Source: a filamentous cyanobacterium CCP2
GTDB lineage: Bacteria; Cyanobacteriota; Cyanobacteriia; Elainellales; Elainellaceae
DNA length: 35,836 nt
Direction: 5' to 3'
Assembly: GCA_003003615.1 (NCBI GenBank)
Contig: PVWD01000032.1
Coordinates: forward strand, 1 to 35,836
This document shows positions 10,420-33,874 of the stretch, piece by piece. The position numbers and the translations under genes are program-made. The notes beneath the pieces are model-generated. The model searched no databases, was not told where the DNA came from, and saw only the letters and a list, made by a program, of their open reading frames with translations. Each line of letters opens with the position of its first letter. The first letter of the stretch is position 1.

Positions 10420-10743
10420 ATGGGATTTTTTGACTCTGAGATCGTCCAGCAAGAAGCAAAGCAACTGTTTGAAGATTATCAGTCTCTTGTCCAACTGGGA
10501 TCGGACTATGGCAAGTTCGATCGCGAGGGCAAAAAAATCTTCATTGAGCGTATGGAAGAAATCATGGATCGCTGGCGGGTATTCATGAAGCGGTTTGAAT
10601 TGTCTGAAGACTTCATGGCCAAGATGACAATGGAGCAGTTCAAGACGCAGTTTGGTCAATTTGGTGTCACTCCACAGCAGATGTTTGATCAAATGCATAC
10701 GACCCTAGAGCGAATGAAAGCTGATATCGATCGGCAAGGTTAG
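10420..10743 (+). CDS. DUF1825 family protein
   Basis: A 107-residue, highly charged, mostly helical protein of the DUF1825 family, which is restricted to and nearly universal in cyanobacteria. Conserved pieces are MGFFDSEIVQQEAKQLFEDYQ at the start, the YGKFDREGKKIFIERMEE region and FMKRFELSEDFMAKMTMEQ. It is cytosolic, has no cysteines, no membrane segment and no known function. The ATG at 10420 is chosen over the GTG at 10417 because family members begin MGFF and AGGG lies five bases before it. The stop codon overlaps the stop of the leftward gene at 10740-11810 by a few bases, a tight convergent arrangement. Confidence 0.9.
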   Translation: MGFFDSEIVQQEAKQLFEDYQSLVQLGSDYGKFDREGKKIFIERMEEIMDRWRVFMKRFELSEDFMAKMTMEQFKTQFGQFGVTPQQMFDQMHTTLERMKADIDRQG

Positions 10744-11810: not shown

Positions 11811-12813
11811 AGTGTCTTGGAAAGCGTGAAGAATGATTTGATTCACGATCGCAACTATCCGGTAGAAATTCTGCACCACAAAACGAATGAGAAAAGGTTA
11901 GCGCAATTGAGAGAATTAAACTTGCGAAGGTGTAGGATGCAAAATTTGAACTAATGCGCTTCTTTCCAGCAATACGTTGCACTTATGTACTGCAAGGATT
12001 GTATTGCAGCAAGAGCAACATTAAGTTGAACTTGATTGTTTCTGGTAAGACGACGAACCTCTTGAACGCTGTCTTAACTTATTTCAAGATTGATCGGTGA
12101 TTTCCCTATTTTGATCATAGCTAATTCAATAAAGTTTTGTATAGTAATCGCGGTAATTCTTTAAGAGAACCATCAATTATTCCCTAAGTTATCTATCAGT
12201 TTTTACGGCATTAGAGATAACGAGATAAGACAGATTTTGTATTCCAAAGCACTCATTACAAGTTTTGTCTTAATGAATGATTTCACCCTTTTTATCGAGT
12301 GCCATATTTTTCGAGCAGTACACTGTAACTCACTAAAAGTACGCCTGTAAAATTATGATGACTTGATGTTGACTGCTCTTCACTTTATATAAACTTCACA
12401 AAGCTCTGCTAGAATTCTGGAGAGTTTCACGCAATGCAGACATTTCAGCCGAACGTGAACTGAAAAACCTAAGTAGAGTTTTAAGGTTTAAGCCTGGTTT
12501 AGCTTTCAGACGGGCATTTATTCAGGGATTTACCATTCATTGCAGCCTGCTGCTCAGTCAAAAGACTGGAAAGCTTAGGCATTCATCGCATGTTAAGAGC
12601 AAAGGCGACTCATGGGTTTGGGCTAGAAATTTACTTTTAGTTTAGTTATCAAGCGAGTTGTGTTCCTGGGCTGTTAAATAGATTTTTTCAAGTTATCGCG
12701 GATTGTTTTCTGGCGATCGAATTGACGAATCAATTGACTTGGTAAGTTCAATCACCAAGCCTTCTTTGTGCAGGTAATTTGTGTAGGTCATTATTTTCAA
12801 TTGAGGATACACG
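11811..12813. other. Long A/T-rich divergent spacer
   Basis: About 1 kb without a credible gene; only very short frames occur (for example 25 codons near 12274). It is markedly more A/T-rich than its surroundings. It must contain promoters for the leftward unknown gene and the rightward roadblock gene. The best candidate for the latter is TTGATG (12363-12368), 17 bp, TATATA (12386-12391), which would give a leader of roughly 415 nt. A small TGCAA...TTGCA inverted repeat lies near 11992-12010. Confidence 0.5.
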
Positions 12814-16067: not shown

Positions 16068-16802
16068 CTAATGTTCTTGCGCCTTTTTGGGTTCAATATA
16101 GATCAGGGCTAACATGAGTCCCAAAACAAATATGACGTAAAAGCAAACCAGAGAAGCCAACGAAACATTATCCAAGCCAGAGGGCGGCACGATCTTTTCA
16201 GGGTTTGGCTCTAAAACAACGGCTGCCATTCCTGTATAGTGCATGCTGGTGATGGCTAATCCCATGACGATCGCACTCAGAATTTTGAACCGCTTTTGCG
16301 TGGTTTTGTCGTCCCGAAACAGCATAAACAGCTTTAACGCGACGTAAGATACAGAAATGGCAATGCCAACGGATAGGGCAAACAAGACGGGCTGATAGCT
16401 CAGGTCAGCAGCCATTTGCATGGCAGCCATGCCAACATAGTGCATGATGGCGATTCCTAACCCAGCGACCACCCCTCCGATGAGCAGCGTTGAGAATTTG
16501 GTAACTGGGCGGCAGGTGATGGACAAAGCCTGTAAGGCAGAGATGATAGGCAGGATCAGCGATAGTACCAGAATTGGCACATTGTATGTGACACCCGTCG
16601 GCAGGGAGACAGCCAACATACCAATAAAATGCATTGACCAAATGCCTGAGCCAAGCGCGATCGAGCCTGCCGTGAGCCAGAAGGGACGAAATGTACCCTT
16701 TGCGGTGAGTAAACGATTTGTCATCTCAAGCGCAATAAAGGAAGCCAATATTGCAGTCAAGGCAGATATTACAACAAGTACAGGATTGTAACTAATGGGC
16801 AT
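16068..16802 (-). CDS. Free-standing MHYT-domain membrane protein
   Basis: A 244-residue integral membrane protein with about seven transmembrane helices and three copies of the MHYT signature: SMHFIGM (56-62), IMHYVGM (119-125) and SMHYTGM (186-192). In the MHYT family these Met/His residues at the outer membrane face are proposed to bind a metal, perhaps copper, and to sense oxygen, CO or NO. That proposal is from family analysis, not proof. MHYT is usually fused to GGDEF/EAL, histidine kinase or other output domains; here it stands alone with only a short EPKKAQEH tail. The ATG at 16802 is chosen because AGGA lies six bases before it; the frame could be extended to a TTG at 16850 inside the CheW gene. 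Its place in the chemosensory operon suggests it feeds a signal to that system. Confidence 0.9.
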   Translation of the reverse strand: MPISYNPVLVVISALTAILASFIALEMTNRLLTAKGTFRPFWLTAGSIALGSGIWSMHFIGMLAVSLPTGVTYNVPILVLSLILPIISALQALSITCRPVTKFSTLLIGGVVAGLGIAIMHYVGMAAMQMAADLSYQPVLFALSVGIAISVSYVALKLFMLFRDDKTTQKRFKILSAIVMGLAITSMHYTGMAAVVLEPNPEKIVPPSGLDNVSLASLVCFYVIFVLGLMLALIYIEPKKAQEH

Positions 16803-16839
16803 CTTTCGTCCTAAGAAAATTTGAAAGTAGGAAAGCGTT

Positions 16840-17403
16840 TCACGGATCAACGATTCCCGGTGGTAGCGTTGCGGGGCTTTGTATCAACTGATTTGGATTC
16901 AGCAAAAAGATGGGAGATTCATCTTTAGAGGGAACGATTAAAGCACTAATACACCGAATGCTGCCTTGTTTTAAGTATTCAGTGGGAACAGGAGCAAATG
17001 CAGAATCGGGAACGCGACGAAGAGAGGGAGGGGACTCTAGCGGAATGCCCATTAACTCACCATGCGAAGTTTGCATCAACAATAAGTGTTGCTGATTGAA
17101 CGAAGTCAATGAACTCGATCGTGAAGAAGAAACAGAATCAAGTTCACCTGAGATTAAATACTGCTCAGGCGAACTGAAAAAGATGCGGCGTTGAATATCA
17201 ATGACTAGCACATCACGATCTTGATAGCGCGTTAAGCTAATTCCTTCATTGCGACACATTCCGTAGGTTTGTCCCATGGGAATCACCTTATAGGCAAACC
17301 GGATGGGAAGTGCGAACCATTCATGGCGAATCCGAAACACAATCAACTGCTGAGTTGCCTGGTTTCGACGGGCAGCTCCCCGACGGGAGGGTGAGGGGGT
17401 CAT
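16840..17403 (-). CDS. Second CheW-like adaptor
   Basis: A 187-residue protein with a CheW-like fold: QLIVFRIRHEWFALPIRFAYKVIPM (19-43) is the first beta-unit and DVLVIDIQRRIFF a later strand. A Ser-rich insertion (SVSSSRSSSLTSFNQQ) interrupts the domain, and the C-terminus ISALIVPSKDESPIFLLNPNQL completes it. CheW proteins bridge the receptor tip to CheA. This copy is more divergent than the PixI-type CheW at 24300 and begins with a basic tail (SPSRRGAARRN). It starts 11 bp after the CheA stop, so it is almost certainly co-translated with pixL. It may couple a different receptor, or the MHYT protein, to the same kinase; that is an inference. Confidence 0.8.
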   Translation of the reverse strand: MTPSPSRRGAARRNQATQQLIVFRIRHEWFALPIRFAYKVIPMGQTYGMCRNEGISLTRYQDRDVLVIDIQRRIFFSSPEQYLISGELDSVSSSRSSSLTSFNQQHLLLMQTSHGELMGIPLESPPSLRRVPDSAFAPVPTEYLKQGSIRCISALIVPSKDESPIFLLNPNQLIQSPATLPPGIVDP

Positions 17404-17414
17404 GGGTCAACTCC

Positions 17415-20400
17415 TCAGCTTGCTGGAGCTAACTCAATGAGCTTTTCGAGCGTTTGCAGAAGTGCTTGCTCATTGTAAGGCTTTGAGAAGTAGGCAGTCG
17501 CACCTAAGTTCATTGCAAGTTTGCGGTGTTTCTCACCACTGCGAGAAGTCAGCATGGCAACAGGAAGACGTTCAAAATCTGGTGTTGCTTTGACTTTTGC
17601 CAGGAATCCATAGCCATCTAGACGGGGCATTTCAATATCGCAAATGACCGCTTGCACTTGTAGCCCAGCATGTAGTTTGTCGATCGCATCTTGCCCGTCC
17701 TTGGCTTGCGCCACCTGATATCCTGCTTTTTCCAGTGTCAGAGCCAGCAACCGTCGAACATTGATGGAATCATCCACCACTAAAACAGTAGGTTTTCGGG
17801 CAGGCATGAGGGCAGGTGAAACGGGAAGCCCGCCCAAAGAGCGAGCGTGATCTACCTGAAGATAGTCGGGCAAGTTAAACTCTGATCGATTACAACTGGC
17901 AATCCAGTGGAGCATTTCTGACACATTTACCAAAGGCACAACGCGCCCATCACCCAAAATGGTGCAACTATTGAATCCGGGTGGTAATGGCAGGTTTCCT
18001 TCGACTCTGCGAAGTGCCACCTCTTGCTCACCCCAGCAGCGATCGATTTGTAGCCCGACTTTTTGGCTGCCTTGATTCAGGATCAGCACAGCCGGAGCGT
18101 TAATTGTCGGTGGCGTTTCCAACCCTTCCATCTGCCGTGGACAGTTAAACTTGAGCCAATGGGAGAGCCGAATCAGTTGCACCATTGCTTCTTGCCAGCG
18201 CATCACCTCATTTCCCGCAGTCACAACTACTTGCTCAGGCTGTAGCACCACCATTTCATCAATCACATCCGTTGGAAATGCCAGCAGCATTCCACCACTT
18301 TCCGCCAGCAAGACCCTGGCAACGGACAGCGTAAACGGCACAGACAGGGTAAATGTGGTTCCCAAGCCTGCCTGCGTATTGACCTTAATTTCTCCGCGAA
18401 TTTGTTTAAGGTTATTCCGCACTACGTCCATACCAATACCGCGTCCAGATAAGTCGGTCACACGATCGGTTGTGCTAAAACCAGGTTCAAAAATGAGTGA
18501 TAGGAGTTCTTCATCGCTCGCAGCAGACAGCAGTGTTTCATCTAAACCCATTTCCCGCGCCCGCGATCGGACTTTATCCAGAGGAATCCCGCCACCATCA
18601 TCGCTGATTGTAATTACAGTGCGATTATGTCGATGAAACGCTCGAATTTCAATCAACCCTTGCTCTAGCTTGCCGCGTGCTTTCCGAGTTTCTGGTTCTT
18701 CAATACCGTGATCAAACGCATTCCGAATTAAGTGTAATAACGGTTCGTTTAAAGCTTCTAGAATGTTGCGATCGACCAGAGTTTGCCCACCATGAATCTT
18801 AAGCTGGACAGGCTTCTTATGCTGCAATGAGAGTTCACGAAGGGCTTTAGGGAAGCGATCGATAATATCAGACAGTGGACGCATCCGGACATGGCTCAGG
18901 CTAATTTGCAATTGTTTTGTTGTTTTGTGCAAATCGCGGTTAATTTGTTCTGTGTCGTCTAAACCCAGTTCAATATCGCTGGTAATTTCCTGAACCTGCA
19001 CGATCGTTTCCATCACTTCCTGAGACAGAAGATGTAGCTCATTATAGCGATCCATCTCCAGCACATCAAAGCGATCGTTTGTTTCAATCAAGTTATTGTA
19101 ATGCTCAAAGGGCGAGGAGTGATGCGAATCCGCGACGGGTAATAACGGCAGCGAAGAGTCTGGAATTTGGGTGGCAACGCGATCGTAAGCTGTACGTAGT
19201 TGAGTATTTGACTGATCTAAAATTTGTACCCGTAGCGACATTGTTCGAATCAAGCTACGTAAACGCTTGAGGTGAAGATCTAACCGATTTCGTTCGATCG
19301 TCAGTTCACCCATTAAGTCATTCATTTGATTCAAATGGCGAACTGGAACTCGTACAGAATTTTCCTGAACTTCTTCTGAAATTGGTAAATCTGAAATATC
19401 GTTGCTGATGCGAAATTCTGTTGCTTGAGTGTGTGCCTGGGGTTCGTAATGAGACCGATCGTTGTTTTGAACCGGAACAACGGAAGCATCAATGGGCAAA
19501 ATTGGATCAAATTCTGCATCTTGTTCTGAATTAGATTCTGAAATTGCATTAGAAACTGAATGAGCCTCAATCTCAGCATTTTCCTCTGATTGTTCTAACT
19601 GAGAAAACTGAAACTCATCAACTAAAGCTTCAGTAATGGAATCATCATTTTCTAAAAATGCATCAAAAGAGTTTTCTTCGATCGCTTCAAATTGGGTAAA
19701 CTCAGGTAAATGCTCAGGATTCATCCCGTTTGGAATGAAGTCTGCTGAAATATCAATTCCTTCAACGTGAATTGCGATCGGTAAAGCATTGAGATTGCCG
19801 GTTAAAACCAATGCCTGGGTTTGTCGCCATGCCTGCAAAGCAGCTTCTGCCACTGCTTCAACCCGATCGCCCGCAAGGGCCATATGATGCAAAACAGACT
19901 CACAAAGCCGACAAAACGCCGATAGTTGTAGCATTTCGCCCAACCCACCAAGCTCCTGCGCCAGAATCTCAACTTCTTCCCGCAGGCACGGATCTCCGCT
20001 ATACAGAACTGTTTCCAACCGTTGTAAACAGCCTTCTACTTCTGTCTCGAACAATAACGGAACGATATCTTGTCCTTCTTCCGGAGAAAGTACCGAATTT
20101 GCATCCTCAGCCTGGGGATCACCCAACCGATCGTGCAGTTGTTCAAAAACCGGAGAGGCATAGTCATCTATCCACTGAGGGTCAATGTTATGCCGGTGAC
20201 GACGCTGATCAACCACATGGCGCAAACAATCTGCCCCTGATAGTAATAGGCGTTCTAAATCTGCATCAATGTCGATCGAATTTTTTTGTACCTTCAACAC
20301 TTTGAAGGAGTCTTCCAGGCGGTGAGCCAACTGGCTCAGAATCTGAAATCCCATCATGGCGGCTCCTCCTTTGACAGAGTGAGCGGCTCTCAAAGCAGCA

Positions 20401-20525
20401 TTAATTTTTTGGCTATCCACGCCACTGCTGGCGATTCCTAAAAGAGATGCTTCGATGGTGTCCAGGTACTCCTGCGCCTCATCGAGAAACTGAAGCTGAA
20501 TTTCGAGTTCCTTATCCTGTGACAT
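17415..20525 (-). CDS. pixL: Hybrid CheA histidine kinase, PixL type
   Basis: A 1036-residue hybrid kinase. In order: an N-terminal Hpt domain with phospho-accepting H49 in AAHSVKGGAAMMGF; a long region with a second helical Hpt-like segment (about 150-245) lacking a clear histidine; an acidic linker (260-370); the dimerisation region; the HATPase with NAFDHGIEEPETR (N box), DDGGGIP and GRGIGMDVVRNNL; a CheW-like regulatory domain (about 745-885); and a C-terminal receiver (912-1036) with D918/D919, phospho-site D963 and K1015. It takes the receptor signal from PixJ via CheW and phosphorylates PixH, PixG and its own receiver. In Synechocystis the PixL system controls positive phototaxis by type IV pili. 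It begins 157 bp after pixJ and is followed by the second CheW-like gene after 11 bp. Confidence 0.93.
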   Translation of the reverse strand: MSQDKELEIQLQFLDEAQEYLDTIEASLLGIASSGVDSQKINAALRAAHSVKGGAAMMGFQILSQLAHRLEDSFKVLKVQKNSIDIDADLERLLLSGADCLRHVVDQRRHRHNIDPQWIDDYASPVFEQLHDRLGDPQAEDANSVLSPEEGQDIVPLLFETEVEGCLQRLETVLYSGDPCLREEVEILAQELGGLGEMLQLSAFCRLCESVLHHMALAGDRVEAVAEAALQAWRQTQALVLTGNLNALPIAIHVEGIDISADFIPNGMNPEHLPEFTQFEAIEENSFDAFLENDDSITEALVDEFQFSQLEQSEENAEIEAHSVSNAISESNSEQDAEFDPILPIDASVVPVQNNDRSHYEPQAHTQATEFRISNDISDLPISEEVQENSVRVPVRHLNQMNDLMGELTIERNRLDLHLKRLRSLIRTMSLRVQILDQSNTQLRTAYDRVATQIPDSSLPLLPVADSHHSSPFEHYNNLIETNDRFDVLEMDRYNELHLLSQEVMETIVQVQEITSDIELGLDDTEQINRDLHKTTKQLQISLSHVRMRPLSDIIDRFPKALRELSLQHKKPVQLKIHGGQTLVDRNILEALNEPLLHLIRNAFDHGIEEPETRKARGKLEQGLIEIRAFHRHNRTVITISDDGGGIPLDKVRSRAREMGLDETLLSAASDEELLSLIFEPGFSTTDRVTDLSGRGIGMDVVRNNLKQIRGEIKVNTQAGLGTTFTLSVPFTLSVARVLLAESGGMLLAFPTDVIDEMVVLQPEQVVVTAGNEVMRWQEAMVQLIRLSHWLKFNCPRQMEGLETPPTINAPAVLILNQGSQKVGLQIDRCWGEQEVALRRVEGNLPLPPGFNSCTILGDGRVVPLVNVSEMLHWIASCNRSEFNLPDYLQVDHARSLGGLPVSPALMPARKPTVLVVDDSINVRRLLALTLEKAGYQVAQAKDGQDAIDKLHAGLQVQAVICDIEMPRLDGYGFLAKVKATPDFERLPVAMLTSRSGEKHRKLAMNLGATAYFSKPYNEQALLQTLEKLIELAPAS

Positions 20526-20682: not shown

Positions 20683-23600
20683 TTAATTAATGCGGTGGAT
20701 TTCGCTGCCCACTTCAAAGGTGCCAACTGATTCTTGTAAGTCTTGGGCAACTTCTACCGTGCGCCGTAGGGCAGAAGAAACTTGCCGCGAGGATTCGGAG
20801 GTACGTTCTGATACGTGGGCAATCTCTTTCATGAGCTTGGAGACGGTTTCAGACGTACTAACCTGGGAAACGGTTGTTTCTGAAATGGACTGCACCAGTT
20901 GGTCAATTTGGCGAGACACATCCAGAATTTGGTTTAGGCTCAGTTTCGCACTTTCAACCAGTTGAGTTCCCTCTACAACTTGGGCCGTACTTTGTTCCAT
21001 CGCTTCGACCACCTGACTGGTTTCGCGTTGAATGTTGTCTACAATGCGCTCAATTTCCTGGGTTGCAGCCGCCGATCGCGCCGCCAGTTCTCCAACTTCC
21101 TCCGCAACCACCGCAAAGCCTTGTCCTTCTTCTCCTGCCCGTGCTGCCTCAATTCCGGCATTAATGGCAAGCAGGTTGGTTTGCATGGCGATTTGATTAA
21201 TCAAAGACACCACCTTAGAAATCTGCTGCGACGATTCGCCGAGCCGCTTCACCTTTTTCGCCGTTTCTCCTACCGTTTCCCGTAGGTTCAAAATGTTGTG
21301 TACTGTCAAATCCATTGCCGTTCCACCTGCTTCAGCCGTCGCCGATGCTTTATGAGCCACTTCTGCGGCTTGCTGGGCCTGAACTGCCACCACCTGAATC
21401 GATTGGGTCATCATTTCCATTGAGCTAAGGGTTCGCATGGTTTCCTCTGCCTGCCGCAGGGCTTCATCGGCAAGTTGGCGAATCGCAGATTCGTTTTCAC
21501 CCAAAGAGTCATTCACCTGAACGACCGATCGCTTCACCTGGGTCACAATTTGACGCAGACTTTCCACGATCGAGTTAAAGAAGTCTGCAACAGTACCAAT
21601 TTCACCTGCCGTGACATCGGCTCGCACTGTTAAATCACCCCGTGCGGCTCCTTCCACCTGGCTCAATAGCTCAATCAACTGCAATTGCAAAGACTCTTTC
21701 TGGAAGCGTTGTTCGTCAGAGAGGGCTTCCGCCTTGAGGCGAGCCTGCTGCAACTCGGTGAATAGGTCAGCTTGCTCGATCGCATACCCAAGCTGAAGAG
21801 CCACTTGCCGGAAGAAGTTAATTTCTCCATCTTCCCAAACGCGGGGTGCAGAGCAGTTATGGGCAATGAATAATCCAATCAACCGATCGCCAATCAGAAT
21901 GGGTGCAACTAGGTTTGCTTTAACCTGGAACGGTTCTAACTGCTTCAGATGACATTCGGTTAGCCCAGCATTGTGAATATCGTTCGTTGCGTGAACGCGC
22001 CCCTGACGATATTGCTCTACATATTTGTCAGCAAAGCACGGGTCAGCAATTTGCGCTCCCATTGCCACCGGATAACCGGGCTGCACCGATTCTGCAACAA
22101 TTTCGCCCTGCCATTGATCGTTGAACAGGAAGATAATCACGCGTTCGGTATTCATCACTTCTCGCACATCCCGCACCACGCTGCGGAACACCTTTTCACG
22201 CTCTAGCGACTCCCGCATATGGAAGATAATTTTGTTCAATCGCCGTTCGCGTTCGGCGGTAAATTCCTGCTGTTCCAGGAGCTTGGCTTGGGCAAGGGCA
22301 TATCCCACCTGAACGGCAATTTGCCGCATCAGTTCAATTTCGTCTACTTCCCAGGAACGCGGACGAGAGCATTGATGGGCGCACAACAGTCCGATGAGTT
22401 CATCACCCACGACGATCGGTGCAACGATATTAGCCTGCACTTCCATCCGTCGCAAAATTTCGCAGTGGCAATCAGACAGTTGGGCCTCTGACAGGTTTTC
22501 GATCGTTGAAATCCGACCACTCTTGAAGCGTTCGATCGCCCCTGGCACAAGCGGGTCATGAATAGTTTGGCCCTTTGCCTTTAGCCAACCATGCCCAACG
22601 GATTCTGCCGTAACAAATCCACTCTTATAGTCAGGATTAAAGCGGTATATTAAGACACGATCGACCTTCAGCACTTCTCGTACACCCGTGACGGAAGTTT
22701 TGAGAATATCTTCAAAATCCAAAGATTGGCGAATGCGGCTGGTTAACTCTGCTAATAGCTGCGCTCGTTTCGTTGCAACTTCTTGCCGACGGAATTGCTC
22801 CTCTAGTTCTTGCTCAGAGGCCAACACAACATCTGCCAGGCTATTAAATGTTTCAGCAAGTTGCCCAATTTCATCTTTCGCAAACACTTCAGCGCGGGTT
22901 GTCCGGTTGCCAGAAGCAAACCAGAGATTTGCTTGGCGTAGTCGCTCAATGGGGTTGGCAATTGCTCGTCCCAGAAGAATTGCCAGTCCGACATCTGCTG
23001 CTAAGGCGATCGCTGCAACCACCAACTGCATCATTAAGCTATTCCGTAACAGTGTATCTAAAGCTGCTTCTGATGTTCCTCTAACCAGAATACCGATCGG
23101 TTCATCATTGAAGTTATTAATGGTTTGAGCTGCAACCGTATAGGTTTGATCGCCAATCTCTAAGCGTTGTGTTACTGTTTCACCAGGACGTTCTGTTGCC
23201 CATTCTAAAATTGCAGTATCCGGTAAGGGGATATTTGTCTGAGCCAGATCAACACTTTCTTGATCCCCCATGTCAAGGGATGTGGCCAACTCATATTCCC
23301 CGTTATTTCCTCGCATATAAATTGCGCTGTAACCGTTATCAAAGGCTTCAATTGTTCCTTCAACGATCGGCAATTTTTTGTTAACAATATCTCCTGAAAC
23401 TAAAACACCAATCACCTCTTGCGTGTTTGGATCTCTTACAGGAGTTAGGGTGTAGCGAATCAGGGCATCCTGGTTTGAAAAGCCTTCTGGAAGTGGAGGA
23501 GCTTCCCGCTGTAATTCTTCCCAACTGACGATCGCACTGGTTTTAATTTGGCGAGGGTTGGTTAAAACGGTTCCCACTAGGCCGCCTGGATCAAATCTTT

Positions 23601-24189
23601 CACCCGTGCGATCGGCATTCGCACTGGCAATAATTTGTAAATCTCTTCCCACCAAAGTGGCATATTCAATTTCGCGAGCCGTGACTTCATTTCGTAAAAT
23701 TTGCTCAACCTGTTGAATCGTTTCTGGGGCGGTGGGTTGCCCTCCTGTGGCTTGTCTAGCAGCAGCAATAATTGCCGCATTGTCTGACTGCCCCCGGAAG
23801 CCAAACCCCATCTGATCAACTTTAATGTTGTACTGAAGGTCTGTAACCGCTAGCTCAGACGATGCCTGATTGACTAATTGGGCACGCCCTCCCGCCACAA
23901 TTAAAACCGAACTTGCACCCACCAGCCCTACGACTGAAATTGCTTCAGAGCTAAAGAGTCCAAGTAGCTGCTTACTCCGCACTGGCAGGTTATAAAACCA
24001 TTGCAGTTGAGAGCCTTCTGTAATGGGTTGCGTACCATAACTGATGCCGCGATACCGCAGAACACCAGATTCGTGGTTCAGGTTGCCATTTTCGTCGGCA
24101 GGCTCCTCTAAGCTAGATTGCAGGAAGAGGGTTTGATCGGTTGGGTGTTGAGGTTCGTCGGTTGAAAAGTGGCGCGGTTGAGTGGTCAT
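20683..24189 (-). CDS. pixJ: PixJ-type phototaxis receptor with cyanobacteriochrome GAF
   Basis: A 1168-residue methyl-accepting photoreceptor. In order: a cytoplasmic tail; TM1 (about 76-100); an extracytoplasmic sensor region (105-380); TM2 (386-407); HAMP (408-460); GAF1 (475-640); GAF2 (650-810); a second HAMP-like segment (835-890); and the signalling hairpin, whose tip ([20 protein letters not shown], then [12 protein letters not shown]) is canonical. GAF2 has the DXCF motif D716PCF719 and the bilin cysteine C746-H747. The two cysteines are 28 residues apart, as in TePixJ (C494/C522), predicting a blue/green phycoviolobilin photocycle. GAF1 keeps a CH pair (C574-H575) but has DPLV where DXCF would be. 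The MCP domain presents the signal to CheW (PixI) and CheA (PixL). Gene order and domains match pixJ of known phototaxis clusters. It starts 110 bp after pixI. Confidence 0.94.
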
Positions 24190-24299: not shown

Positions 24300-24806
24300 T
24301 TAAGGATTTCGTAGAATGGAGGACTGGGCAACGGCTTCGGCATCCAGCACCATGAGGAGGGTTTTGGCTTGGTCTTGCTGCTGAATGGCACACCCCCTGA
24401 GATAGGGAACCAGGGATGGCATAACCTGCCCGATCGGAGATTGAATTTGATTGGGTTCGATCCAGGTGATGCCTTCAACTCGCTGCACTGCTAAACCCAA
24501 CGTGACTAAACCAACTTGAATAATGACCAGGTTGTACTGTTGAACGGTGGTGTCTAATGCGGCTAAACCGAGCATTCGGGCGAGATCAACTACCCAAAGG
24601 ACTCGGCTGCGACGGTTCATTAGCCCTAGCATACAGGCAGGCATACTGGGCATTGGGGTCAGACGACGAACTGGCAACACCATTGCCTCTTGCACATGCC
24701 GCATTGAAAATACAGCAGAGGTGTTGGGGTAAAGCTCAAACCGGAGGTAGGCATCTCCTGCCGCCTTTTTAGGACGGGCGGTTGGGGTCAATGCGGAAGT
24801 ATTCAT
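24300..24806 (-). CDS. pixI: CheW-type adaptor, PixI type
   Basis: A 168-residue CheW protein: AYLRFELYPNTSAVFSMRHV near residue 19, PSMPACMLGLMNRRSRVLWV (the conserved loop and strand at about 52-71), DLARMLGL, and QYNLVIIQVGLVTLGLAVQRV at about 88-108. It should bridge the PixJ signalling tip to the PixL kinase. The family-typical arginine in GLMNRRSRVLWVVDL is present. The ATG at 24806 lies four bases after the pixH stop and has no clear Shine-Dalgarno of its own, implying coupling to pixH translation. pixJ follows after 110 bp. Confidence 0.92.
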   Translation of the reverse strand: MNTSALTPTARPKKAAGDAYLRFELYPNTSAVFSMRHVQEAMVLPVRRLTPMPSMPACMLGLMNRRSRVLWVVDLARMLGLAALDTTVQQYNLVIIQVGLVTLGLAVQRVEGITWIEPNQIQSPIGQVMPSLVPYLRGCAIQQQDQAKTLLMVLDAEAVAQSSILRNP

Positions 24807-24810
24807 GGAG

Positions 24811-25188
24811 TTAAATCACAACAGACTTGATGGCACGGACGAGTTGCTCACGGGTAAAAGGTTTTGTAATGTAGGCATCTGCCCCTTGCTTCATTCCCCA
24901 CAGCCGATCGATTTCTTGGTTTTTGGAGGTGCAAATGATGATCGGGACTTTTTCCGTTGTGGGATTCTTTTTAAGATTGCGGCATAGCTCAAAGCCACTC
25001 ATCCCTGGCATAACAATGTCTGTCACGACAACGCTAGGTTTTTGTTCGATCGCAATACTCAGTGCCTCTTTTGCACTGACTGCACTAATGACGCTATAGC
25101 CACTCTCCTTCAGGTAGTGCGTAATTAATTCCATTTCAGAAGGCGTATCTTCAACAATCAGAATTGTGCCCATCAAGGTTGTGTTCAT
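24811..25188 (-). CDS. pixH: CheY-like response regulator, PixH type
   Basis: A 125-residue single receiver domain with acidic E13-D14 pocket residues, phospho-acceptor D57 in VVTDIVMPGMSG, T87 in ICTSK and K109 in ITKPF. There is no output domain, as in CheY/PilH. In the Synechocystis phototaxis system PixH and PixG are the two targets of PixL and help set pilus activity or polarity. The start at 25188 is supported by AAGGAA about eight bases upstream; a GTG at 25206 and an ATG at 25173 are less likely. The spacer to pixG is 168 bp and contains a hairpin and a wider inverted repeat; that to pixI is only four bases. Confidence 0.92.
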   Translation of the reverse strand: MNTTLMGTILIVEDTPSEMELITHYLKESGYSVISAVSAKEALSIAIEQKPSVVVTDIVMPGMSGFELCRNLKKNPTTEKVPIIICTSKNQEIDRLWGMKQGADAYITKPFTREQLVRAIKSVVI

Positions 25189-25218
25189 ACGATATTTCCT
25201 TGCCACCTAATACTATTT

Positions 25219-25356: not shown

Positions 25357-26457
25357 CTACGTCAGGTGTTTGAACACCATTTTGACTAAATCAGATTGGG
25401 TAAACGGCTTAGTGAGATAGCCCGATGCCCCAACCAGTTTGGCTTTCGCTCGGTCAATTAATCCAGTATTACCTGTCACCATGATGACGGGAGTATGCCG
25501 GAAATGAGGATGTTTTCTCAGGAGAGAACAAAGTTCATAACCATCCAAATTTGGCATTGTGACATCCAACAAAATTAGATCGGGCTTACTCCGAACAATT
25601 TGCATTAATGCTTTCACTGGATTATCGATCATCAACACAGTAAAGCTGTTGTCATCTAAGAAAGAACGAATGGCTTGCAGAACTGTGGGGCTATCATCAA
25701 TGCAAGCGATCGTATACTGCGTTTTTTTAGGCGGAGCCGATGCCGACAACGCATTAAATTTGAAGCGTGGATATTCTGATGGAGTCGCTGGGTTGGGTGG
25801 CTCTGCTGGATTGTTAGACATGGGGTTGTCAGACATCACAGAGGCTTCTGGCATTTTACCCGCACCATTTTGCTCTGCAATCACAGGCGATTCAATAATG
25901 GGCTGAGTTGCGGTGGGGCGAGGGGTTTGCCGTTGGCGTTGGCGGGTTTGGCACTGCTCCACCAAAAATCGCAAATCAAGCTGGCAGAACTTGGGAAATT
26001 CGGTTCCTTGCTCCAGGGAAATGAGTTCGTGGGTGCCGTCTTGCACCGATAAAAATGTCTCAATCACTTCGATCGCCAGTTCTTCAACGAGCAGACTGGC
26101 TTGGTTGGAAACCAGATGCTGTTGGTCTACCAGCCAGCAAATGGCTCTGTAATCGTTGGGCAGAGAGGAAGTTGGTTCGGCACTTTCAAACAGCAACCGC
26201 ACCTGAACCCGTACAGCACTCACTAAGCTGGGCACTTGGGCACTGAGGCGACGCAGGTGGCGATCGAGCCGCTCAAATGGATTGGTGGAGTTGGTGGCAT
26301 AAACCAGTTTGCCTTGCTCCAAGTACAATGACCAATTGACCGATCCATTGGATACCTGTAAGCAGCCATTTGCTTGACGGCTGGAAAGTTGCGCTAGCAA
26401 GGTTAATGGATGCAACTTTTGAAAAGGTCTATAACTACCCATAGTGATGGTATTCAT
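25357..26457 (-). CDS. pixG: PatA-type response regulator, PixG
   Basis: A 366-residue protein. The N-terminal part (about 8-170) is a PatA-like/DUF4388 domain: FQKLHPLTLLAQLSSRQANG, then SLYLEQGKLVYATN at 43-56, and CWLVDQQHLVSNQASLLVEE at about 107-126. A Pro/Asn-rich linker (173-245) leads to a receiver (248-366) with D254/D255, phospho-site D298 in LLDVTMPNLDGYELC, T328 and K350. PatA/PixG proteins are the first genes of many cyanobacterial chemosensory loci and appear to transmit the signal to the pilus machinery, though their exact partner is not fixed. The ATG at 26457 has GGAG seven bases upstream. This is the first gene of the leftward pix unit; a 9-bp inverted repeat lies in its leader. 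Confidence 0.92.
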   Translation of the reverse strand: MNTITMGSYRPFQKLHPLTLLAQLSSRQANGCLQVSNGSVNWSLYLEQGKLVYATNSTNPFERLDRHLRRLSAQVPSLVSAVRVQVRLLFESAEPTSSLPNDYRAICWLVDQQHLVSNQASLLVEELAIEVIETFLSVQDGTHELISLEQGTEFPKFCQLDLRFLVEQCQTRQRQRQTPRPTATQPIIESPVIAEQNGAGKMPEASVMSDNPMSNNPAEPPNPATPSEYPRFKFNALSASAPPKKTQYTIACIDDSPTVLQAIRSFLDDNSFTVLMIDNPVKALMQIVRSKPDLILLDVTMPNLDGYELCSLLRKHPHFRHTPVIMVTGNTGLIDRAKAKLVGASGYLTKPFTQSDLVKMVFKHLT

Positions 26458-27270: not shown

Positions 27271-29868
27271 TTAGTCCAACGATCGCAGAATTCGGCGAAT
27301 TTTGTCCTTTTGTTGGCGATCTAAAAATTCAGGAAACCGTAATTCCATTGCAACGCGATGAGATAAATCATAGGTAGAACTTGCTGGAATCATGGCAAAT
27401 TCTTCAACCATTTGAACTTGGGCCAACAAACTATAAGTATAGGGGTCAGTGTTCGTTTGTCCCATTGAAAGCGCAATGAGGGGCTGCGTAATCCGAATCA
27501 TGTCTAGTTCAGCCACCGCATCTCCCACAATTTCCAGGCGCAGATCTCGCATTCCCATTTCCGTGACCCTAGCAGTGTAAGACTGTCCTTCCCAGCCCTC
27601 CCAATAGAGGTGGGCGATCGCATCTACCTGTTTCCGAACTTTCACCCCCACTTCTGGACGAAACTCTCTGAAGGCTCGCCTTAGGCTCGTTGAAATGAAT
27701 CGCAGGGAATCTAAAGGTTTGTCTACTTCAACTCGTTTTTGGGAGTACCACTCTTTTACGTCAGAATAAATCACAACAGATAAGTCATCTAGCTGGGTAC
27801 GGCTGACGTTGATAAAATCGATCGCTAGTAAAGTTTGCAATTTTTCGGTGGCAATACCGCGCACAATTTCCGCATCTAACAACGCCCTTGCCCCAAAATC
27901 TCCTACCAGTTCTACCCGCACTTGATCCGGAATATTAGGCCAGGAATCTAATACAACTAGCGTTCCGGATTCGCTAACGTTTACTGTTTTTCCTGCCCAA
28001 CGATGATCATCACTGTGGATAATTGCATCAATCTGGCGCGGCAAACGGTGCGATCGGCGGAGTTGAGGCTGCTCAAAAGCGGCCAGGCAGGCAGCAACCA
28101 CTAGAAGTAAATTAAATGTACACCAAAGGCTGTTGATTAAAACGGCTTCAGTATCGCGAGGACTCAACAACAACCAGAATGGAACAGCTAACAGCGAAGC
28201 TCCTGTAATCGCTCCTAAGATGACTAAATAACGAATCGACTCTAGATCAAAATTTCGCTTAGTAACGCTGAGTCCTTTGTCTGTTACGTTGAATGAACCT
28301 AGCCTCGGATTAATCATTGCCAATATGGTGACAATTCCTGCCTGGAAGGACATCGCAAATTCATAGATTTCATTCCAGAACGAGAACCGCACATGCTTAT
28401 AGCGGATATGGTTTGTCTGCATCGACAGAACAATATGAGGTAACGCATAGAAGAGCGTTTCTAAACCTAAACCACGTACAGAGTTGATCCCAAATAAAAG
28501 AAACAAAGTCGGAGCGACCGCATACATCAGGCGCGGAAAGCCAAAGAAGAAGTGGGAAGTTGCGCTTAAGTAACAGAGCCGTTGTCCGATCGACAATTTC
28601 AACTTGGGGTTAAACAGGGGATTTTCCAGCCGGAGAATTTGCGCCATGCCCCGCGCCCACCGGACTTGCTGCCCCACATAAGAGGAAAATTTTTCCGGAG
28701 CCAGCCCTGCCACCATAATCTTGTCGTAGTAAACCGTTTCGTAACCCTTGGAATGCAAACGCAGGGCCGTATGGCAGTCTTCAGTTACGGTTTCTGTTGC
28801 AATTCCGCCCACTTCCAAAACGTGTTTACGGCGAATCACAGCAGCCGAACCGCAAAAGAAGGCCGCGTTCCAAAAGTCATTTCCTTTTTGTAAAACTTTG
28901 TAAAACAGTTCATTACTGACGGGAACCCGCCCCCCTGTTCTCAAATTTCGCTCAAACGGATCAGGGTTATAAAACCAGTGAGGAGTTTGCACGAGGGCAA
29001 CTTTCTCCTTGAAAAAGAAACCCACCGTTTCTTTTAAGAAAGTGCGAGAGGGAATATGGTCACAGTCAAGGATCAAAATGAGATCGCCACTGGTTTTTTG
29101 AAAAGCAGTGTTAATGTTTCCAGCCTTTGCATGATCGTTATTTTCCCTGGTCAGCATTGTGCATCCTAATTCCTCACACATATGCCGAATTTCTTCCCGC
29201 CGCTCTGGAAATTTCCGTCCATCATCCAGAACATAAACCCGCTTTTTATCTGCCGGATAGTCGATCGCCAATGCACCTAAAACCGTCTTCCGCACAATCT
29301 CAACATTTTCGTTATAAGTAGGAATAAATACATCAACGGTAAACCACTGCTCTTGCGGAAACTGTTTTAAATCAATGGGTTTCCGAGTCTGAAGTTGGGC
29401 TGTTTGGAAGTAAGCCAGCATCAGCGTTGCAATGCCGTATAATTCCGCGAAGTAGAGCAACAGTGAGAAAAATGTATTCAGCCAGCTATCTAAATTGAGG
29501 GTGTAGGCAGTTCGGTAATAGAAATAGCGCAGGGTGACAAGTACGCTCAGACAAACGAGCAATAGATGCAAGTATTCACTAATGCGGCCTTGCGGATGAC
29601 GTTCCTCCAAGGTCAATAGAAATCGTCCAACTCCAATCATGAGCAGGGCCACCATGCCTTGCTGCCAAAAGGTGGGACGAATGGTAATCAGAGGAATACA
29701 TATCCACAGGAGGCAGATCATCATCAAGACCAACTGACGACGACTCAGCCATTGCAATAACCAATCAAAACTTTGTGGAATGCGATCGACCAGTACAGTG
29801 GTCGATATTGTATTTAAGCGATCTAACCATGCTGGGGTTCGACGGGGTTTACTGGAAGGACGGATCAT
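27271..29868 (-). CDS. bcsA: Cellulose synthase catalytic subunit BcsA with PilZ domain
   Basis: An 865-residue processive family 2 glycosyltransferase that polymerises UDP-glucose into beta-1,4-glucan and threads it through the membrane. N-terminal helices (about 44-155) precede the catalytic domain with the D,D,D,QxxRW set: DDG at 215-217, DCD at 268-270, TED at 362-364 and Q400QVRW404. More helices follow, then a PilZ domain with RRSHR and NVSESG, the RxxxR and (D/N)xSxxG motifs that bind c-di-GMP. This predicts activation by c-di-GMP. The ATG at 29868 has a strong AGGAG six bases upstream; the longer frame from a GTG at 29940 lacks one. After the PilZ domain a C-terminal region (about 180 residues) continues, with a second PilZ-like stretch (EGQSYTARVTEMGMRDLRLE). 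It lies 83 bp after bcsB. Confidence 0.93.
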   Translation of the reverse strand: MIRPSSKPRRTPAWLDRLNTISTTVLVDRIPQSFDWLLQWLSRRQLVLMMICLLWICIPLITIRPTFWQQGMVALLMIGVGRFLLTLEERHPQGRISEYLHLLLVCLSVLVTLRYFYYRTAYTLNLDSWLNTFFSLLLYFAELYGIATLMLAYFQTAQLQTRKPIDLKQFPQEQWFTVDVFIPTYNENVEIVRKTVLGALAIDYPADKKRVYVLDDGRKFPERREEIRHMCEELGCTMLTRENNDHAKAGNINTAFQKTSGDLILILDCDHIPSRTFLKETVGFFFKEKVALVQTPHWFYNPDPFERNLRTGGRVPVSNELFYKVLQKGNDFWNAAFFCGSAAVIRRKHVLEVGGIATETVTEDCHTALRLHSKGYETVYYDKIMVAGLAPEKFSSYVGQQVRWARGMAQILRLENPLFNPKLKLSIGQRLCYLSATSHFFFGFPRLMYAVAPTLFLLFGINSVRGLGLETLFYALPHIVLSMQTNHIRYKHVRFSFWNEIYEFAMSFQAGIVTILAMINPRLGSFNVTDKGLSVTKRNFDLESIRYLVILGAITGASLLAVPFWLLLSPRDTEAVLINSLWCTFNLLLVVAACLAAFEQPQLRRSHRLPRQIDAIIHSDDHRWAGKTVNVSESGTLVVLDSWPNIPDQVRVELVGDFGARALLDAEIVRGIATEKLQTLLAIDFINVSRTQLDDLSVVIYSDVKEWYSQKRVEVDKPLDSLRFISTSLRRAFREFRPEVGVKVRKQVDAIAHLYWEGWEGQSYTARVTEMGMRDLRLEIVGDAVAELDMIRITQPLIALSMGQTNTDPYTYSLLAQVQMVEEFAMIPASSTYDLSHRVAMELRFPEFLDRQQKDKIRRILRSLD

Positions 29869-29951
29869 CAACGGCTCCTGCGATAACGCTCCTGGAAAAT
29901 AAATCGGCGATCGGGTGGAAGATGCACCAGGGGCAATCACATTTGCAACTT

Positions 29952-32336
29952 TTACGACCGGCTGGCGGGGCTAACGCGCTGGAGGTAAAGCTGAGACACT
30001 CCATAAAGTAAAAGGGCTGCAATAATTAGGGCGGGCACTAGGATTAGCCAATTGCTTCTAAACAGCAACCACCAGCTGCGCTGATCGCCCACAATTTGCT
30101 GCTGAGGCGACAAACTCAAAAATTGCAGCGTGTAGTCATTGGCATCAAACGGTGAAGGATTCTCAGTATTGGCACTAATGAGTACCGTGTCGCCTTGCAG
30201 TTGGTAAAACAGAGGGTCTTGGGCAATCAAATCGCGGACATGACCCAACCCTTCTTCCGACTGGCTGCTGAGGGCCAGCAAAACTCGTTCCTCATTCCAC
30301 GGAGAAACCACCTGCTTGAGCACGCCTTCCGCATCGGGAGAAGACTGAATTTGGCTTTGCTGCCACTGCCGCAGGGAAGCAGGATTTAGGTTGAAACCCT
30401 CATCCCGAAAGGCTTCCGGGAAGGGAAACTGTTCCTGTTCGCCAATGCCAATCAAGTGAGCAGCCTCGCGCACTTCTGAAGGAAGCTGGCCAGTGCGGTA
30501 AACATTGAGCTTGACAGATTCTGCTTTGCTCAAACGTCCAAGCCGCTCACTGGTTTCCAACAGCAGCAATAAATCCGATTCAGTGGGATTATCGGGAATC
30601 ACGATCGCCGTGCTAGACAAATCCTGCGGAGCCGCAAAAGGATAGCCAAACCGGAACAGATCCAGGTCTGGGACATTCACCACGTTTTGCCGATTTAGAT
30701 CAAAGCTTGTATCTGCATGAATCGTTCCCCAAAGCTGCTGATCGGTGACACGGCTACAGGCGCGTCTTTCTCGCGGATCAAGGCGGAAGTTCACCTGCAT
30801 CTTAGAATCAGGACGAATGCGATCGGGCAAATCTAGCCGGAACTCTTGCCGCGTGGCACCATTCACCGAACTGAGCCGCCGACCGTTTACTGGAATCCCG
30901 TCTAGCTCAACTTCTACCAGGGAAGTGACTGGGTTTACCTGGGGGCTATAGCTATACCGCAGCACCATCGTATTTCCAGGCAAAAACTGATCGTCTGGCA
31001 ATGCCCGAAAGTCAAACTCCAGGGCCGGCGCATGGGAACCGCGTACCATCACATCGCCATAGGGCTGGTTGTCGTAGGAGCGGAGATCGCTTAACTGAAA
31101 GGAGTCCGTTGTTGGCAAATAGCCCGCCCAATCTCGCGAGGAGGGACTTGGAATATCCGTCACCTGACTCACAAAAATGACGCTGCCCGTACCAATTTTT
31201 TGATCCTGGGATTGCGCCAAAAACTGGACGGCTTTGGCCACCCCCTCGGAACTATTGCCCGTTGCCACCAGCACCGGAACCTGATTTTCGGCAGTCGTTG
31301 TCAGCATCAGCACACCCACATCAGGTGGCAAGGTTCGCTGCTGTCCGTCTAACACGCTGCCCGACTGAATCGACAGGGGCAAATCCAATGTGGCTAAGTC
31401 CGGCTGCTCTTCCGGCGTACCAATAACAATCAGGCGTTCGCTGTCTTCTACTTCGCTGAGGGAGTTAATCAGGCGCGTGTCCAGCGATCGATACTCAGCA
31501 ATTCGTCCGAGGGAAGTCTGGTAGCGGGTGGTCGTGGTGAGCCAGGATTCATCAATGGTTTGGGGCAGCAGATAAGCCACCTGATTTCCTTGAAGGCTGA
31601 GGGTGTCATAAACCGGGAAGGGATACCGACTAAAATCAAGGGCGATCGGCTGCGGTTCATAGTCGAAGACGATTTTGGAATCGGGGAGAATTTCTGTCCA
31701 AAGGGAGGGGTCGTAGGGATCTTGGGTGCAAGTGGGTGAATTATTTTGCAGCGCGGCAATCACCACTTCATTGTGATCTTGAATTAAGTTGACAGGCACA
31801 TCAAAGGCGACACTGCCAATTTCCCCTTGAGGCTTATTGAGCGGGACGCTGCCCACACTGGTTCCGTTCATCAACACCGTCAGGTTAGAACGGCTGGCGT
31901 ATAAAGCCGCAGAATGGCGAAACCGCAGCAGCACCTTCACCGATTCGGCTTCCCAATCACGGGGACGAGTAAACCGCAACCGAGCTTCATCATAAATACT
32001 CTGTAGCCGCAAACGGTTCCCCACCACGGGGCTACGATTAAACTCCAATACATACTGTCCCGGTTCAGAAGGGGCAACGGTGGGAGTTGTTGCTGAACGC
32101 GGTAGGGCAAACGTTTGGCTACGGGTAGGAGCAGGACTGGGGGAAGTTTCCACCTCTGAAGATTCAGGCGGAGATGACCCGTTTTGGGCTTGGACTAGAG
32201 AAACGGAACCAGCCAGAATGATGCTGCCCGTCAGCAAAAAGCACCCCAGTAGACGCGCCATTCGACCGATCGGGTTCGATCGCCGTTTACGGGTAGAGGA
32301 TGCAGCCAGGTTAGGTTTACGAATGCGATGGTTCAT
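29952..32336 (-). CDS. bcsB: Cellulose synthase regulatory subunit BcsB
   Basis: A 794-residue periplasmic protein anchored at its C-terminus. A basic N-terminus (MNHRIRKPNLAASSTRKRRS) leads to a signal sequence (LLGCFLLTGSIILAGSVSLV) cleaved probably after VQA. A Ser/Pro linker follows, then carbohydrate-binding and ferredoxin-like repeats: RLRFTRPRDWE, VLLRFRHSAALYASRSNLTV and the conserved NGTSVGSVPL loop in the first unit, and LVEVELDGIPVNGRRL in the second. The C-terminal helix (about 763-785, WLILVPALIIAALLLYGVSQ) is the anchor that docks on BcsA. BcsB guides the glucan chain across the periplasm. The ATG at 32336 lies 26 bp after the endoglucanase stop with only a weak GGA ahead. Operon position before bcsA is usual in reverse order to proteobacteria (bcsAB), so this BcsB-BcsA order is worth noting. 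Confidence 0.9.
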   Translation of the reverse strand: MNHRIRKPNLAASSTRKRRSNPIGRMARLLGCFLLTGSIILAGSVSLVQAQNGSSPPESSEVETSPSPAPTRSQTFALPRSATTPTVAPSEPGQYVLEFNRSPVVGNRLRLQSIYDEARLRFTRPRDWEAESVKVLLRFRHSAALYASRSNLTVLMNGTSVGSVPLNKPQGEIGSVAFDVPVNLIQDHNEVVIAALQNNSPTCTQDPYDPSLWTEILPDSKIVFDYEPQPIALDFSRYPFPVYDTLSLQGNQVAYLLPQTIDESWLTTTTRYQTSLGRIAEYRSLDTRLINSLSEVEDSERLIVIGTPEEQPDLATLDLPLSIQSGSVLDGQQRTLPPDVGVLMLTTTAENQVPVLVATGNSSEGVAKAVQFLAQSQDQKIGTGSVIFVSQVTDIPSPSSRDWAGYLPTTDSFQLSDLRSYDNQPYGDVMVRGSHAPALEFDFRALPDDQFLPGNTMVLRYSYSPQVNPVTSLVEVELDGIPVNGRRLSSVNGATRQEFRLDLPDRIRPDSKMQVNFRLDPRERRACSRVTDQQLWGTIHADTSFDLNRQNVVNVPDLDLFRFGYPFAAPQDLSSTAIVIPDNPTESDLLLLLETSERLGRLSKAESVKLNVYRTGQLPSEVREAAHLIGIGEQEQFPFPEAFRDEGFNLNPASLRQWQQSQIQSSPDAEGVLKQVVSPWNEERVLLALSSQSEEGLGHVRDLIAQDPLFYQLQGDTVLISANTENPSPFDANDYTLQFLSLSPQQQIVGDQRSWWLLFRSNWLILVPALIIAALLLYGVSQLYLQRVSPASRS

Positions 32337-32362
32337 GATCCAGGAACGAATATAGATAAAGG

Positions 32363-33829
32363 TTAAGATGCATTAACAGAACGAGTGATAGAACTGAACA
32401 GGTGGCAAGGAAACCAGCGAAGACAGCGAGCCTCGGTATGGAGAAATTCGTTAGGGGCAGCAGCAGGCAGTAAGCCAAACCAGGCAAGGTTCTGGGTGTA
32501 GTAGGCAGTGTCGTTGTCCCAAATTCCGTTGTTGTATACTGGCACCAGCTTTTGCTGATAAATTTGCTCTGCTACGTCTGGGTTTACCTGCTCAAAGGCA
32601 TAGTGGAGCATGGCGTATTGGGATGTGGCTTCGTAATCAACGATCGCCGCTCCAGTCAGGTCAATTTGGGCCGGAATCTGCTGCTCGGTTTGCCAGAGTT
32701 CTTCCAGATACGAGAGGTGACGATGCAGGAAGCGATCGGCTTTTCGTTCTTGAAACCAGGCTGCATCCCAGGCAATTCGCCACCAAACTCGATAGGCATC
32801 AAATCCATACCGAGTGATGAGAGGATGAGTAGCAGGCAAGGGCTGAAACCGCCCATTCCGGGGATTAATGGCAACCCAATCACTGGGCAACCCCACTTCC
32901 GACAGGGCCGCATCCTGAGCCAAGGCATCATAGCTACTGTTGACGAGCCGCATCCAGCGATGATCAGGGTCAACCTGGGCAAACAGGCGGAAGGCATAGG
33001 GCGCAAAGTAGGACGGGTTCAAAATATAGCCATCATCGTCATTCCAGAAGGCTTCCTTGGGGCCAGGAATGAAGTATTGCCTGCGGCGAATCGTTCCGGT
33101 AGAAAGTTCCCACAGGTCGTTTAGCTTTTCCCGTGCCAAATCGAGATATTGGGAACAGTCCCACCGTCGGGCAGCTAAAATCAGCGCGTAGGCAGCATCC
33201 AAATCAGCATCGCTGGCAAAGTTTTCATCCAAAATCCGCCATTCTCCGCTGGAATGTTGTCCCCATTTCCACGCCCAGAGCGAGTCGGTTGGTGCGCCAG
33301 CTTCATCTCTGCGACGGAGGTTATTTTCTGCCCAGGTAAACGTCCGATCGAAGGTATCTGGGTCGTTAATCATCACGGCCCGCAACATGGCATAGGCCTG
33401 TCCTTCTGACACCGTGCGATCGTTGTCTTCCCGATCGATAACGCGACCATCACCTTGAATAAACCGATTTCGGTAAGCTATCCAGCTTTCTACAAGAATG
33501 GCTAAATTCTCCGGGGATATTTCAGAAGATGCGACTGATGGAAGGGAGAGAGCTACCGACCCAGCGTTACTTCGACAGGCAGAGAGATTGTTTAAATCGG
33601 GGCTAGCTGAATCGGAATTGCTCACATTAGGGCGATCGACTTGAACCTGATGAGGGCTGCTTGGACTGTACCCTGGCGAACGGTTATTTGCGGAATGATC
33701 GGCTGCCAAAACAGGATTGATCAAAATCGACATCAACGCGGCAAAACTGCTGATAAAACCCAACCATAGCCGCTGTTTGGTGCGGTTTTGGACAATCGAT
33801 CGACTTAGACGAAGCAACAGTTTAGTCAT
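32363..33829 (-). CDS. bcsZ: Glycoside hydrolase family 8 endoglucanase (BcsZ type)
   Basis: A 488-residue protein from the ATG at 33829. A hydrophobic signal segment (LWLGFISSFAALMSILINPV) ends at a likely VLAA cleavage site, so it acts in the periplasm. The GH8 hallmarks are VSEGQAYAMLRAVMINDPDT (family SEGQGYGM; the Glu is the proton donor), ASDADLDAAYALILAARRWD (containing the conserved Asp) and the YRVWWRIAWDAAWF helix. GH8 enzymes of cellulose operons trim or edit the nascent beta-1,4-glucan. A GTG at 33856 would add nine residues; neither start has a clear ribosome-binding site. It lies between the TPR gene (45 bp) and bcsB (26 bp), and an operon is likely. Confidence 0.9.
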   Translation of the reverse strand: MTKLLLRLSRSIVQNRTKQRLWLGFISSFAALMSILINPVLAADHSANNRSPGYSPSSPHQVQVDRPNVSNSDSASPDLNNLSACRSNAGSVALSLPSVASSEISPENLAILVESWIAYRNRFIQGDGRVIDREDNDRTVSEGQAYAMLRAVMINDPDTFDRTFTWAENNLRRRDEAGAPTDSLWAWKWGQHSSGEWRILDENFASDADLDAAYALILAARRWDCSQYLDLAREKLNDLWELSTGTIRRRQYFIPGPKEAFWNDDDGYILNPSYFAPYAFRLFAQVDPDHRWMRLVNSSYDALAQDAALSEVGLPSDWVAINPRNGRFQPLPATHPLITRYGFDAYRVWWRIAWDAAWFQERKADRFLHRHLSYLEELWQTEQQIPAQIDLTGAAIVDYEATSQYAMLHYAFEQVNPDVAEQIYQQKLVPVYNNGIWDNDTAYYTQNLAWFGLLPAAAPNEFLHTEARCLRWFPCHLFSSITRSVNAS

Positions 33830-33874
33830 ATTCGCTGGCTGTAGGAGTATTTGCACCGTTAGAATCTGAAATTG

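Follow-up and report, generated by a model that had tools for sequence, protein, structure and literature searches.

A tandem-GAF PixJ of a filamentous cyanobacterium combining a DXCF domain with a conserved, putatively bilin-binding GAF domain of a distinct CHC type

Introduction

Cyanobacteriochromes with several GAF domains and several colours are already known, as are PixJ proteins with two GAF domains. For the sensor of light direction in cyanobacterial taxis, PixJ is the leading candidate. How yellow or red light can steer cells through a blue/green receptor is a standing puzzle (PMC5812497), and in Phormidium lacuna yellow light acts via PixJ (PMC13383048). In the two-GAF PixJ1 of Synechocystis phycocyanobilin (PCB) is bound, according to a review, at GAF2 only (PMC5812497). 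As to the motifs of these photoreceptors, WXDXXL is the mark of the XRG lineage (PMC11284453), second cysteines occur at several places other than the DXCF motif, and positions in helix 4 and strand beta-2 have been linked to teal-type tuning (PMC5240096).

The window analysed here is a stretch of 35,836 nucleotides (contig PVWD01000032.1) of the filamentous cyanobacterium CCP2, and all positions given below are those of this window. It encodes a PixJ in which, in our judgment, both tandem GAF domains are probably working bilin domains, GAF2 being of the DXCF type and GAF1 a single-canonical-Cys domain of a type designated CHC that binds PCB. A search of the open-access literature found no characterised PixJ GAF1 of the CHC type, and a PixJ lineage with a single canonical Cys and two extra cysteines apparently is, as far as that literature goes, undescribed.

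The pix operon and its expected pigment

As judged from the Pfam domains of its neighbours, the gene of protein P0001 sits within a complete pixGHIJL (pix/tax) operon (Table 1), whose gene order is common to most related loci in a neighbourhood comparison. The only Pfam domains of P0001 are HAMP-GAF-GAF-MCP, with no PAS or PHY domain around the GAFs, and on architecture and synteny the protein is assigned as PixJ. The genome yielded a single ferredoxin-dependent bilin reductase (FDBR), which scores above the NCBIfam PcyA cut-off, and PCB is therefore the expected pigment.

An earlier note on this DNA, made from the sequence alone, had proposed the tandem GAF domains and had placed them at 22000-22770; this interval contains GAF1 but cuts GAF2 short, C746 falling outside it. 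The residue numbers of that note (DPLV 545-548, C574-H575, D716-P-C718-F719 and C746-H747), checked on the translation, are all correct.

Table 1. Features of the pix operon and of PixJ (P0001) in the window
Feature	Position	Strand	Description and basis
pixG	25357..26457	minus	DUF4388 (PATAN-like) + receiver
pixH	24811..25206	minus	CheY-like receiver
pixI	24300..24806	minus	CheW
pixJ (P0001)	20683..24189	minus	membrane MCP, HAMP-GAF1-GAF2-MCP, 1168 aa; ORF, Pfam, synteny
HAMP, residues 405-453	22831..22977	minus	Pfam PF00672
GAF1, residues 491-632	22294..22719	minus	CHC-type single-canonical-Cys, cyanobacteriochrome-like; Pfam, alignment, structure model, tree
GAF1 D545-P-L-V-P	22543..22557	minus	bilin Asp kept, DXCF cysteine missing; alignment
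C574	22468..22470	minus	predicted canonical bilin-attachment cysteine; aligned with TePixJ C522
H575	22465..22467	minus	aligned with TePixJ H523
C576	22462..22464	minus	lineage-specific, two residues past the bilin cysteine; alignment
C603	22381..22383	minus	lineage-specific, beta strand, TePixJ I551 position; alignment and model
GAF2, about residues 664-804	21778..22200	minus	DXCF dual-cysteine cyanobacteriochrome GAF; PF01590 match
GAF2 D716-P-C718-F719	22033..22044	minus	DXCF motif; C718 at 22036-22038
GAF2 C746-H747	21949..21954	minus	predicted bilin-attachment pair; C746 at 21952-21954
MCP signalling domain (MCPsignal), residues 943-1126	20812..21363	minus	Pfam PF00015
pixL	17415..20525	minus	CheA-type hybrid kinase: Hpt, HATPase, CheW, receiver

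Two further genes of the minus strand lie 3' of pixL and may share the pix operon; they encode a second CheW-like protein (16840-17403) and an MHYT-domain membrane protein (16068-16850). Immediately upstream of the operon, also on the minus strand, is a cellulose synthase cluster (27271-33856) composed of a BcsA-like glycosyltransferase with a PilZ domain (27271-29940), BcsB (29952-32336) and a GH8 endoglucanase (32363-33856), followed by a TPR protein. Elsewhere in the window are a class A penicillin-binding protein (3450-5843, plus strand; transglycosylase and transpeptidase) carrying an FHA domain at its N-terminus and, on the minus strand, an ORF of 379 aa (10740-11879) for which Pfam gives no match at E 0.001.

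GAF2, a DXCF domain

The earlier assignment of GAF2 to the dual-cysteine domains is borne out by sequence, motif and tree: the DPCF motif and the Cys-His pair are present with the TePixJ spacing (28 residues from C718 to C746), the best PDB relatives are the TePixJ structures (top match 3vv4, 155 bits) and in the tree the domain falls into the DXCF clade that includes TePixJ (support 96/89). A photocycle of the blue/green type is thus the natural prediction and is likely but not certain, because in helix 4, eight positions after the bilin cysteine, F754 replaces L530 of TePixJ; since the teal-tuning positions include this helix (PMC5240096), a blue/teal cycle is also possible.

GAF1 and the register of its bilin pocket

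It had been noted earlier that C574-H575 of GAF1 stands in the place of the bilin-binding pair with DPLV instead of DXCF. Alignment and predicted structure agree in putting this pair at the position of TePixJ C522-H523; the comparison with characterised cyanobacteriochromes that the same note had proposed as a check superimposes C574 on C522, and not outside the pocket, both by sequence and in the model. Furthermore, D545 aligns with TePixJ D492 and N587 with N535, Q526 of TePixJ corresponding to I578 in GAF1. The AlphaFold2 model of GAF1, derived from an alignment of 66 relatives, has a mean pLDDT of 89.5, with helix 4 beginning at D573, C574 at the start of this helix and C603 in a beta strand. 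Its best structural match is TePixJ 4glq (Z 25.1, 148 residues, model 22-170 on chain 436-584), followed by miRFP670nano and PPHK, and among the matches listed all 50 of 50 are bilin GAF domains of the phytochrome family; by sequence the best PDB match is PPHK (6OAP).

The second cysteine of DXCF is absent in GAF1 and throughout the CHC clade, and GAF1 also lacks the trapped-twist Phe pair, whose positions (mapped by eye on the alignment) are occupied by V526 and M582. GAF1 has three cysteines that had escaped the earlier note, C576, C603 and C607, the last of which is common to TePixJ and ordinary DXCF domains whereas C576 and C603 are absent in TePixJ. The claim that GAF1 is a single-cysteine bilin domain stands in part: it gains support from the conservation across the lineage and from the existence of PixJ proteins having only a CHC GAF, both described below, but the term “single-cysteine” needs a caveat because two extra diagnostic cysteines are present and one of them, C603, has an equivalent, mapped by counting, that reportedly points towards the D-ring of the bilin (PMC11284453).

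Conservation and spread of the CHC type

The sequence comparisons place GAF1 in a distinct and conserved CHC clade of PixJ GAF domains, so that it is not an isolated case and not a remnant; the signature of the clade is IxDP[LM] ... C574-H-C576 ... C603, the last residue being in the beta strand. The two-GAF region is present in 27 of 60 relatives at E < 1e-100 and in nearly all 27 the ortholog alignment, made without selection, has GQTIxDPL...CHCEIL...GLLCxHQCS in GAF1. When a sample of 390 genomes of the class was scanned with a DNA pattern representing the CHCE motif, 44 genomes belonging to three families gave a match, and among the matches listed none is to the reversed control pattern. 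A search with the GAF1 alignment returned named relatives in Leptolyngbyaceae, Nodosilinea, Phormidesmis, Phormidium, Moorena and others; the CHC GAF occurs in at least three cyanobacterial families. Among 350 extracted GAF domains, 105 (duplicates included) have the Asp without the DXCF Cys, followed by C-H-C and the strand Cys. A chance cysteine at C574 is ruled out by the conservation across relatives.

In 23 thinned tandem PixJ proteins the invariant residues of GAF1 are D545, P546, C574, H575, C576, N587, C603, H605 and C607, an invariance that for C574, C576 and C603 is partly due to selection, these proteins having been picked for their CHC and DXCF types; the same pattern of these three cysteines is found in the unselected ortholog alignment. 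Within the 23 proteins the pairwise identity averages 59% in GAF1, as against 56% in GAF2. GAF1 is as strongly conserved as GAF2 and has invariant residues, and is therefore not a decaying domain.

Conservation could nevertheless reflect a function other than light sensing, and we regard it as unlikely, albeit worth serious weighing, that the fold and cysteines of GAF1 serve structure, dimerisation or signal transmission while the pigment is bound at GAF2 only. Synechocystis PixJ1 offers a precedent for this (PMC5812497), a PixJ-like paralog in the same genome has a GAF1 without the canonical Cys, and several members of the clade that lack C574 retain C603 and the fold; against it speak the invariance of C574, H575 and D545 in the 23 tandem proteins and, above all, those PixJ proteins that have no GAF other than the CHC type. 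Indeed, a PixJ consisting of HAMP, a single CHC GAF and MCP, in some cases with a Cache domain, is encoded in full pixGHIJL operons at six loci, namely L099, L103 (Phormidium tanganyikae; this region also appears as L160), L105 (Leptolyngbya FACHB-36), L107, L114 and L159. If these operons sense light like their relatives, the CHC GAF is the sole candidate sensor. Likewise, the Nostocaceae-type PixJ of another family (L154:1347-4895; family code f13), also in a pix operon, has two tandem CHC GAFs and no DXCF GAF. Such CHC-only PixJ proteins in pix operons are the strongest indirect argument suggesting that the CHC GAF binds a pigment.

C574 is lost in some members of the clade (R in L112 and L035, S in L115, T in L129, and also in L122/L123), and these losses, which are small in number, occur only in proteins having another GAF of the DXCF type. 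Part of the lineage thus functions with no bilin cysteine in this domain, which counts against pigment binding by GAF1. Most of them also hit C576 and D545, whereas C603 stays; this joint loss indicates that C574, C576 and D545 are tied together, and that C603 resembles a packing or tuning residue.

The paralog mentioned above (L002, contig C333) displays a GAF1 pattern that is the reverse of that of P0001, found also in L145, L146, L130, L117 and L125, in which the DXCI cysteine is kept, the canonical bilin Cys is replaced (A/G/E/K/D/Q) and the His is retained. In this sister GAF1 group (DXCI...xH), from which the canonical Cys is missing, D, H and N are conserved too; the conservation of these pocket residues was accordingly dropped as proof of bilin binding. 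A different single-canonical-Cys type (VDPxF ... CHR/CHK, with a strand Cys) makes up the GAFs of PixJ-like MCPs with four (L124:1805-6091) and three (L116) tandem GAFs and no DXCF domain.

Working model of a PixJ with two bilin domains

On the reading that both GAF domains carry a bilin, C746 of GAF2 would hold the pigment permanently and C718 would bind and release its C10 atom, yielding a blue-absorbing dark state and a photoproduct of the green type. GAF1 would form a covalent link to PCB through C574, D545 and H575 would hold the pyrrole nitrogens, and the domain would switch without a second thioether, hence absorbing at longer wavelengths than GAF2, presumably in the orange/red with PCB, or in the green if PCB is isomerised to PVB. 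A blue dark state of GAF1 is not expected in the absence of the DXCF thiol, unless C603 or C576 substitutes for it. The two domains would act on a common HAMP-MCP stalk, from which the signal would pass to PixI/PixL, then to PixG/PixH and finally to the pili; PixJ would thereby become the two-colour receptor that the earlier note had envisaged.

The substitution just mentioned amounts to a dual-cysteine photoreceptor of new geometry, in which the bilin is attached to C574 while C603 (or, with lower probability, C576) either makes a second, reversible bond to it or reacts with it after photo-excitation; a light-switchable ligand, or a proton or thiol partner, would replace the DXCF cysteine and generate a short-wavelength state. 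We consider such an arrangement improbable in both forms. C603 and C576 are invariant alongside C574, the position equivalent to C603 is reported near the bilin D-ring (PMC11284453) and second cysteines outside DXCF have precedents (PMC5240096), but C603 persists where C574 is lost, which suggests the packing or tuning role, a Cys at its position is also found in some DXCF domains (L005, L006 and L008), and the known second thiols bind C10 whereas the C603 site is near ring D. That the GAF1 cysteines constitute a redox or metal site, so that PixJ would join light sensing (GAF2) to redox sensing (GAF1), is scarcely credible: C574, C576, C603 and C607 are all conserved, yet C607 is common to TePixJ and ordinary DXCF domains, C574 coincides exactly with the bilin cysteine in a domain that retains the bilin Asp and His, and no motif for a metal or heme was recognised in GAF1.

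Were the new geometry nevertheless correct, the CHC GAF with its second thiol would be the sole or the first PixJ sensor across several cyanobacterial families. If, as we favor, GAF1 binds a pigment through the canonical cysteine, a second colour channel of longer wavelength would exist inside the same receptor, and this would provide an answer to the steering puzzle. A CHC-type domain may also explain the yellow response of P. lacuna, provided that the PixJ of this organism carries one.

Comparison with known systems

Synechocystis PixJ1 resembles P0001 in being a two-GAF PixJ with MCP output, encoded in a tax1/pix operon and having a GAF2 of the DXCF type; its GAF1 is reported in a review to be without PCB, whereas GAF1 of P0001 keeps the canonical Cys. 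With the blue/green DXCF GAF of Thermosynechococcus TePixJ (PDB 4GLQ/4FOF/3VV4) GAF2 shares the DPCF motif, the CH pair and the spacing between them, and differs from it in the helix-4 residue (L530 in TePixJ, F754 here). GAF1 has the same predicted fold as TePixJ and the same position of the canonical Cys-His, but lacks the DXCF cysteine and possesses C576 and C603 in addition.

A single canonical Cys without the DXCF cysteine is a property that GAF1 has in common with two known lineages. One is XRG (AnPixJg2, NpR6012g4 and Slr1393g3), which has WXDXXL where GAF1 has I543-x-D545-x-x-V548 (IxDPLV); the other is the NpR3784 lineage (parent of miRFP670nano) together with PPHK (6OAP), whose motif is VxDxYF as opposed to the IxDPL of GAF1. 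In the tree the XRG references form a clade of their own (100/96) with GAF1 outside, the NpR3784-derived reference and PPHK form another (100/99) with GAF1 apart from it, and the CHC clade comprises 27 rows (support 90/88) with a core of 21 rows (96/91). Membership of GAF1 in XRG and in the NpR3784 lineage is thus ruled out by motif and tree alike. The tree is unrooted and the direction of change, a loss, is deduced, but the second cysteine seems to be missing in the CHC lineage independently of XRG and NpR3784; if this is true, the CHC domains represent an independent lineage of single-canonical-Cys cyanobacteriochromes standing beside these two.
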